In this document: positions 48,414 through 49,971 of the stretch, in pieces
Position numbering within the stretch: the first letter of the stretch is position 1
How the letters are laid out: every line of letters starts with the position of its first letter
Source: Bacteroidaceae bacterium
GTDB lineage: Bacteria > Bacteroidota > Bacteroidia > Bacteroidales > Bacteroidaceae
Direction: 5' to 3'
Length of the DNA stretch: 64,000 nt
Assembly: GCA_017529865.1 (NCBI GenBank)
Contig: JAFXNA010000016.1
Coordinates: forward strand, 1 to 64,000
Program-made: the position numbers and the translations under genes
Notes under the pieces: generated by a model
The model's input: only the letters and a program-made list of their open reading frames with translations
What the model was told of the DNA's origin: nothing
The model's database searches: none

Positions 48414-49004
48414 TTAATTTTTCATTTTCAATTCTTCGCTCTCCGTCAGATAGCGGAGATGTTTACTTGGTACGTCAATGATGGCAGGAGCAATCTCTCT
48501 GCCCATAGGTAATACCACACATCGAACACCTCCTATCCGTTTGATCTTGCCAACAACGCCAGCAAATTCTCCCTCAATGATCTGCACAGTCCGACTGGGT
48601 TTACAGGCATAGTTCAAATTATCGAGAAAAATTATCTTTTCGTTTTCCCGGGCAGTCACTCGCTTGTAATCCTCCATTTGCTTATCGGGAATGTACAGAA
48701 CTTCGTGGCGACGGTCGTATTTCTCATCGTATACAGGATGCATAACAAACCGCAGCGGTTCGAACAACTCGAGGTTACTTTTGAGACGCACTAAGTTTGT
48801 AAATGTGGAACGAACGAAGATGTAATTTAACAGACATGGCGCAAAGTCCATCTTTGTCATATTGACCTTGATGAAGCCAAGCGGCACGTATGTCTCATCG
48901 ACTTCATCCTGCATATTAAGGCGTTCCATCATCGTCTCCAATCGTGAAAGGCTAGAGTTTCGTATACGCATGGGAAACCAGTGGAGACTGCTTTTAGTAA
49001 ACAT
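48414..49004 (-). CDS. UpxY-type NusG-like antiterminator of the capsule operon
   Basis: The 196-residue protein has a NusG N-terminal domain (WFPMRIRNSSLSRLETMMERL, FAPCLLNYIFVRST) and a C-terminal KOW-type motif (IIEGEFAGVVGKIKRIGG). UpxY proteins in Bacteroides allow RNA polymerase to read through its own long capsule operon. The frame extends to a TTG at 49037, but ATG 49004 follows an AAGGAGGGAGG Shine-Dalgarno-like stretch. It is the first gene of the operon. No UpxZ partner gene was found. It needs about 165 bases of leader to act on. Confidence 0.9.
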   Translation of the reverse strand: MFTKSSLHWFPMRIRNSSLSRLETMMERLNMQDEVDETYVPLGFIKVNMTKMDFAPCLLNYIFVRSTFTNLVRLKSNLELFEPLRFVMHPVYDEKYDRRHEVLYIPDKQMEDYKRVTARENEKIIFLDNLNYACKPSRTVQIIEGEFAGVVGKIKRIGGVRCVVLPMGREIAPAIIDVPSKHLRYLTESEELKMKN

Positions 49005-49145
49005 CGTCACAGCCTCCCTCCTTTCGAGTGAAGACAAACTCTTGGGGTCACCACAAAAGTGAATGCGGAGACAGCGAAAAAGCTTTCATAAAATCTTGTC
49101 CGTAATGTACTGAACTCAAGTGACATATCGTGACAATTCCATCTT

Positions 49146-49180
49146 AATCCCTTAAAGGGATTTAGATTTTTGCAAAGGTA
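49146..49180 (-). promoter_or_regulatory. Capsule promoter and operator palindrome
   Basis: On the minus strand, TACCTTTG (49180-49173) is the -7 box, and the -33 region is weak. AATCCCTT-A-AAGGGATT (49146-49162) is an 8-bp inverted repeat that falls just inside the predicted transcript start near 49167, where a repressor or hairpin could act. The leader to the ATG is about 165 bases. Confidence 0.55.
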
Positions 49181-49396
49181 CGAAATTATCATGAATTTAG
49201 CATCAAAAAAGCAGAAAAAAAAGCATACAATACTTCTTTTTCCAGTTATTTACATAGAATTTGACTTGGTCCATGATTGCACAAACAATATTTAGGGACC
49301 TATTATTCATGAGTTAACGTGAATTCGATGAGACTTTAGTTCGACGAACAACAAAACGAGTAAACTCAACAGATAACATAGGTGACCACCCTCAAC

Positions 49397-49474
49397 TAAC
49401 ATATGTTCAAGAGTCAGGGAACATATGTTCAAGAATCAAAGAACATATGTTCATCACCGCTCGAACATATGTTC
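49397..49474. repeat. Array B: four palindromes GAACATATGTTC at 22-bp spacing
   Basis: Copies start at 49397 (first base T instead of G), 49419, 49441 and 49463, exactly 22 bases apart. The 10-base spacers differ in sequence. This lies about 220 bases upstream of the capsule promoter and 138 bases downstream of the DUF2795-like gene. The region 49208-49396 also holds a lone ACTTTAGTTCGACG at 49333-49346 and no gene. Confidence 0.92.
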
Positions 49475-49572
49475 ATAAAAAGGGGTGGTAAAATGATTAT
49501 ATTTTACGCATTTGTCTTCCGTTTTCTTTATTATAATTCATCGAGCTGACATTAAGTTAAAGGGGAGAAAAA

Positions 49573-49602
49573 AAACGATGCGACATTGCTGTCACATCGT
49601 TT
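49573..49602 (-). terminator. Terminator of the DUF2795-like gene
   Basis: AAACGATGCGACA (49573-49585) pairs with TGTCACATCGTTT (49590-49602), followed on the minus strand by TTTTTT. It sits 10 bases after the stop codon. Confidence 0.9.
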
Positions 49603-49611
49603 CTGTTTCTA

Positions 49612-49833
49612 TTAATACTCTTCTTCGTCCCAAAGGAAATCCTCTTTGGATGGGTAGTCCGGCCATATCTCTTCGATGTTCTCGTATACGTCGCCTTCGT
49701 CTTCGATTTCCTGTAAGTTCTCGAGTACCTCCAGTGGTGCTCCCGATCGGATTGCATAGTCTATCAATTCGTCTTTGGTTGCTGGCCAAGGAGCATCCTC
49801 CAGTTTAGTTGCCAATTCCAGTGTCCAATACAT
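49612..49833 (-). CDS. Small DUF2795-family protein
   Basis: The 73-residue acidic protein has WPATKDELIDYAIRSGAP and LENLQEIEDEGDVYENIEEIW, the DUF2795 pattern. These small proteins are common in bacteria and their role is unknown. It has its own promoter (TAATTTTG at 49889-49896, minus) and its own terminator, so it is a free-standing gene. Confidence 0.85.
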   Translation of the reverse strand: MYWTLELATKLEDAPWPATKDELIDYAIRSGAPLEVLENLQEIEDEGDVYENIEEIWPDYPSKEDFLWDEEEY

Positions 49834-49888
49834 AGGCAGATGCTTTTGTGGTTTATGGTAATTTAGGTTATTGATTTCTTTTGAGCCG

Positions 49889-49919
49889 CAAAATTACAAT
49901 AAATATTTGTAACGGCAAG
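49889..49919 (-). promoter_or_regulatory. Promoter of the DUF2795-like gene
   Basis: On the minus strand, TAATTTTG (49896-49889) and CTTG (49919-49916) are 19 bases apart. They match the -7 box and a relaxed -33 box. Confidence 0.65.
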
Positions 49920-49971
49920 CGTTTTTATGAAAAATTTTACCTACATTCGCATTTTTTTTACATAATAGGCA

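Follow-up and report, generated by a model that had tools for sequence, protein, structure and literature searches.

The array of palindromes upstream of a capsule operon in this Bacteroidaceae genome is probably one copy of a dispersed, MITE-like element that is short and non-coding, lies between genes and has a phased row of dimer sites as its body. The array lies in a window of 64,000 nucleotides, the whole stretch of DNA that was analyzed. A first-pass annotation of the window had described four identical palindromes, and the starts at 49397, 49419, 49441 and 49463 and the exact 22-bp spacing were confirmed on the window sequence. Three of the sites are exact copies of GAACATATGTTC, but the first is one base off. 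The parts of the array are as follows.

49374 to 49385, no strand: degenerate fifth site TAACATAGGTGA, with 4 mismatches, 23 bp upstream of site 1
49385 to 49391, plus strand: left arm of an inverted repeat that flanks the array, ACCACCC
49397 to 49408, no strand: palindromic site 1, TAACATATGTTC, with one deviating base
49419 to 49430, no strand: palindromic site 2, GAACATATGTTC
49441 to 49452, no strand: palindromic site 3, GAACATATGTTC
49463 to 49474, no strand: palindromic site 4, GAACATATGTTC
49483 to 49489, minus strand: right arm of the inverted repeat, GGGTGGT on the plus strand

The window copy of the element thus spans about 105 bp (49385-49489), and its inverted-repeat flanks are 7 bp only. 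The window contains three site pairs at 22-bp spacing if up to two mismatches are allowed; none turned up in 40 simulated sequences matched to it in dinucleotide composition.

A search of the whole assembly for the 12-mer alone, at any spacing, gave 14 exact copies of GAACATATGTTC (reversed control, 0). Random occurrence off the 22-bp spacing, which the first-pass annotation had named as one finding that would count against it, was not seen: all 14 copies fall within five 22-bp arrays, at the following contig positions.

C17:13767: array
C27:163: array
C30:12108: array
C36:110593: array
C56: the array of the window

Outside the window, one array lies near pyrD and an LRR gene, one behind a tRNA-His gene, one where a GH28/GH88 gene ends, and one next to a gene that has no Pfam match. 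The degenerate fifth site of the window is homologous to TCACCTATGTTC in the C17 copy and to TCATCTATGTCC in the C30 copy. Among these three copies, palindromes are identical at 47-48 of 48 positions versus 12-21 of 30 for the spacers, a pattern consistent with the proposed selection on a palindromic site of dimer type. Within the window, conservation is indeed limited to the palindromes. Comparison across genomes, however, reveals a weak second symmetric center in the 10-bp spacers, RTNGGCCNAY, 11 bp from the palindrome centers; 76% of spacers (n=162) contain GGC or GCC, versus 13% expected.

A search of related genomes for the 12-mer at 22-bp spacing, together with a record of the neighboring genes, had been suggested as a check. 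Arrays were indeed found, with a patchy distribution, but the link to capsule genes did not hold and the neighbors were mixed. Two adjacent sites were present in 3 of 150 relatives, and a scan of GTDB genomes revealed arrays in several Bacteroidales MAGs from the rumen or gut. The number of site pairs was 132 in RGIG9171 (a 2.4-Mb genome), 82 in RUI435, 54 in RGIG1657, 40 in SUG954 and 16 in RUG11139, with 0 in the control for every genome. As a rough control for spacing, a 21-bp site-pair pattern, which had two more fixed bases, gave 0 matches in RGIG9171 versus 124 for the 22-bp pattern. The arrays are nearly always intergenic and occur in every orientation of neighboring genes, and no gene family recurs beside them in the other genomes. 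Their placement along contigs is irregular, with close clusters, and on this ground evenly spaced chromosome-organizing sites were rejected. In SUG954, unusually rich mosaics of several interspersed intergenic repeats surround arrays (L114, L033, L083).

An alternative that we regard as unlikely, though the strongest of those considered, is that the arrays are a host chromosome element, in which a nucleoid or domain-forming protein recognizes a specific sequence and selection preserves its sites at many loci. The strict 22-bp register favors it, as does the preference for four sites, which is the commonest copy number (31 of the 68 arrays counted outside RGIG9171), and so does the conservation of the palindromes and, in RGIG9171, of the spacers, which exceeds that of the flanks. 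Among 48 copies in RGIG9171, identity was 99.6% in the cores, 84% in the spacers and 56% in the flanking 36 bp; the core value is partly so by construction, because the search pattern required two of the four cores and allowed three mismatches in the other two. Against a host function of this kind stand the very patchy distribution, the variation in copy number, from 5 to more than 50 between genomes, the irregular and clustered positions already described, and the comparison of the window genome with its relative G014, in which no array positions common to the two were seen.

The proximity of the array to a capsule operon (Wzc/Poly_export), headed by a UpxY-like gene, had invited a regulatory reading. 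The array sits between this gene and the 3' end of a DUF2795 gene, both on the minus strand, and the surroundings relevant to this reading are listed below.

48414 to 49037, minus strand: gene for a UpxY-like transcription antiterminator, which heads the capsule operon (NF033644, E 1e-15, under that model's curated cut-off); a neighbor, outside the element
49173 to 49207, minus strand: likely upxY/capsule promoter, with TTTG at 49207 and TACCTTTG at 49180-49173, about 165 bp from the array
49297 to 49563, no strand: segment with the array that has no counterpart in the relative G006, between two conserved blocks (query matches 1-267 and 539-913)
49615 to 49836, minus strand: gene for a small DUF2795 protein (PF11387, E 6e-18), its 3' end toward the array; a neighbor, outside the element

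The stretch at 49173-49207 is presumably a promoter by the Bacteroidales consensus as generally known. A regulator that binds the array and thereby controls the upxY-wzc operon would find its sites about 165 bp upstream of this likely promoter, on the same strand. However, G006, which belongs to the same genus, conserves the upxY promoter region (window 49030-49296, 85% DNA identity, with the promoter inside the block) and the adjoining region of the upstream DUF2795 gene (window 49568-49942, 90% DNA identity); between the two blocks it has unrelated sequence, and the array is missing. The association of the array with the capsule promoter is thus not conserved in this comparison. The tRNA-His locus presents a similar picture: it measures 13 bp in G006, with 91-96% identity on both sides, versus about 280 bp including the array in the window genome, and the array is missing there from G013 and G014 as well. 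At the C30 locus, no alignable empty site was obtained in relatives. The missing arrays could in principle also reflect loss. Just before the array at the tRNA-His locus, the 3' end of the tRNA gene and its terminator are duplicated in tandem, with two extra partial copies (L137:5380-5590).

Because G006 lacks the array, the tRNA-His sites are empty in relatives, and the remaining four arrays of the genome sit at unrelated loci, we dropped the claim of the first-pass annotation that the array is a control element for the capsule; its other suggestion, that a structural DNA-binding protein binds here, was kept as a possibility. With mixed genes adjoining arrays elsewhere, an operator of the capsule operon is very improbable, and any effect on the operon would be incidental to where the window copy landed.

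About as improbable is an RNA element, in which transcribed palindromes would form hairpins that act as a terminator or attenuator. The predicted RNA fold is very stable (z about -8), but this says little, because tandem palindromes inevitably give such stability and the changes in sites and flanks are almost entirely uncompensated. Among 106 symmetric position pairs with variation, none was changed on both sides; compensation was seen in 2 of 134 cases between neighboring sites and in 3 of 99 between nested partners. In RGIG9171, inverted flanks pair within an element no better than between elements, and odd copy numbers are common. No known RNA family matched over its gathering score. Since single-sided changes are never compensated, they point to double-stranded protein-binding sites rather than RNA hairpins. 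The best explanation of the sites, as judged from their sequence, is that they would be read as double-stranded DNA by a symmetric dimer. The 22-bp register is close to two helical turns, so that dimers would align on one face of the helix; the first-pass annotation had proposed this arrangement, and the analysis supports it. No candidate for a protein that binds the array was found.

The Gram-positive LexA box has the form GAAC-N4-GTTC. GAACATATGTTC matches this form exactly and occurs as a 12-mer in the literature on the Gram-positive SOS response, but an SOS operator is scarcely credible: no LexA_DNA_bind match was found in the window genome or in four of the five array-rich genomes (RUI435 alone had one, just over the cut-off), the window genome has no single 12-mers outside arrays, and the site differs from the SOS motifs of Bacteroidetes, whose LexA is CI-like and recognizes GGA-N5-TCC or CTAA-N5-TTAG (PMC8565304).

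The reading of the array as a MITE-like element is supported by its shortness, its lack of coding capacity, its multiple intergenic copies and the empty sites at two loci (window and tRNA-His), at which no clean target-site duplication is readable. According to this model, the element has as its body palindromic sites, as a rule four, that follow one another in strict 22-bp register. Each palindrome would bind a homodimer of a trans-acting protein, and neighboring dimers would sit on the same face of the DNA at a distance of two helical turns and would probably bind cooperatively. The element probably spreads as a non-autonomous unit, mobilized in trans by an enzyme that acts on its ends. We call it MITE-like, and not a MITE, because no cognate transposase or autonomous parent was found. 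No transposase lies within the arrays or recurs beside them. A search for an autonomous parent or transposase with the ends seen in RGIG1657 was negative in draft assemblies, in which absence is weak evidence, and the sole widely spaced pair of these ends in RGIG1657 encloses ordinary cellular genes.

The ends themselves vary. Arrays often have imperfect inverted repeats on either side; these flanks are AAAATTGTTTTCAGAA in RGIG9171 and GGTTCTTCTGCAATTTAGTTGAAA in RGIG1657, as against ACCACCC/GGGTGGT in the window; terminal inverted repeats are clear in RGIG1657, imperfect in RGIG9171 and not obvious in RUI435. That ends differ between genomes, and that in RGIG9171 they are less conserved than the array, is unlike a young MITE. 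An origin from phages or plasmids was also considered and rejected: there was no phage record, the only plasmid match was a weak one of 37 bases (Arthrobacter), and three IMG/VR contigs had isolated AT-rich or unrelated pairs. On one IMG/VR contig (L229:3704-6150), an integrase-like gene is followed by AACATATGTT repeats and then by a microvirus-like gene, and these repeats may be an attachment site.

Elements of about 145-180 bp lie between the inverted ends GGTTCTTCTGCAATTTAGTTGAAA in RGIG1657. The same ends also enclose elements of about 145 bp in which TATCTTAAGATA replaces GAACATATGTTC in the same 22-bp register, and these retain a vestige, ..TATAGGTTC, at the first position. With ends and register unchanged but a different palindrome in place, the two subfamilies appear to have undergone a swap of binding specificity. 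Units resembling GAAGTTAACTT occur among the arrays of SUG954, again in 22-bp register. The window genome and its genus have further 22-bp arrays, with GAGTTAACTC/GAATTAATTC, GAATCGATTC or TTCCC-N6-GGGAA as palindromes; palindrome statistics covered selected stretches. Among 22-bp palindrome arrays with differing cores, the RGIG1657 pair is the only one with common ends.

Several observations concern these additional arrays. GAGTTAACTC/GAATTAATTC and GAATCGATTC are found at 22 bp in repeat blocks (L134:7100-7275 and L136:5030-5090), the first pair being common to C17 and C30. TTCCC-N6-GGGAA forms a separate array family with a unit every 22 bp, in the window genome (C1:187133-187214, C14:35677-35736, C14:122415-122496 and C52:47640-47699) and in the relatives G001, G003 and G006; its centers vary (ACGTAG, CTACGT, CCTAAG, TCCTAG). 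One TTCCC array has a gene for a Y1 (RAYT-like) transposase about 3 kb away, at C14:32129-32473, and a link between this gene and the TTCCC family is possible.

A more tentative idea, which we consider possible but rather doubtful, is that all these arrays represent an undescribed class of genome-wide Bacteroidales elements, in which cores on a 22-bp lattice are exchanged wholesale and co-evolve with cooperative dimeric proteins. The exchanged cores would be GAACATATGTTC, TATCTTAAGATA, GAAGTTAACTTC, GAATCGATTC and TTCCC-N6-GGGAA, with the register kept throughout and the ends kept in one genome. Such exchange would reflect rapid co-evolution with a family of dimeric DNA-binding proteins that silence, tether or mobilize the elements.

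Our analysis corrects a tempting regulatory reading: what lies upstream of the capsule operon is probably a dispersed element. The arrays further suggest that abundant Bacteroidales of the rumen and gut have an uncharacterized DNA-binding protein that acts as a dimer, for which some genomes offer dozens of defined targets; these arrays allow direct pull-down of the protein. Swapped cores on a fixed lattice would provide a natural experiment on the co-evolution of DNA-binding specificity and dispersed repeats.

Several known systems resemble the element in part. Operator arrays of dimeric repressors also consist of palindromic sites for dimers with a phase of two helical turns, but the arrays described here are dispersed and have no recurrent target gene. 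REP/BIME sequences with their RAYT transposases are likewise dispersed extragenic palindromes. However, the arrays here have no hairpin loop inside the palindrome, and we rejected a REP/RAYT system: Y1_Tnp, present in the window genome and SUG954, is absent from RGIG9171, RGIG1657, RUI435 and RUG11139, so that a RAYT-type Y1 transposase is missing from four of the five array-rich genomes. PINSR, a 188-bp repeat with over 170 copies in Prevotella intermedia/nigrescens, is similar in its Prevotella lineage and in being intergenic, non-coding and patchy between species; it differs, in a comparison by description and not by sequence, in that it was reported without terminal inverted repeats (PMC4755523).

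The closest parallel in the literature is the MITE BrickBuilt of Porphyromonas gingivalis, which is dispersed in about 19 copies and has a body of tandem 23-nt units (AGAYCATARTATCCTCTCRTRTG, a non-palindromic consensus), inverted-repeat ends (GAGACCTTTGCA) that match the IS5 family, and no transposase inside (PMC4596501). Both are dispersed, intergenic and non-coding in Bacteroidales, with a tandem body of near-equal period, no internal transposase, and inverted-repeat ends, which vary in clarity in the element described here. In contrast to the 23-nt unit of BrickBuilt, the element described here has a conserved palindrome and a drifting spacer at 22 bp, mostly four sites versus up to 22.8 unit copies (PMC4596501), ends that are unlike the published table and gave no identified IS match versus IS5-type ends, and a palindrome that appears to be swapped between subfamilies.
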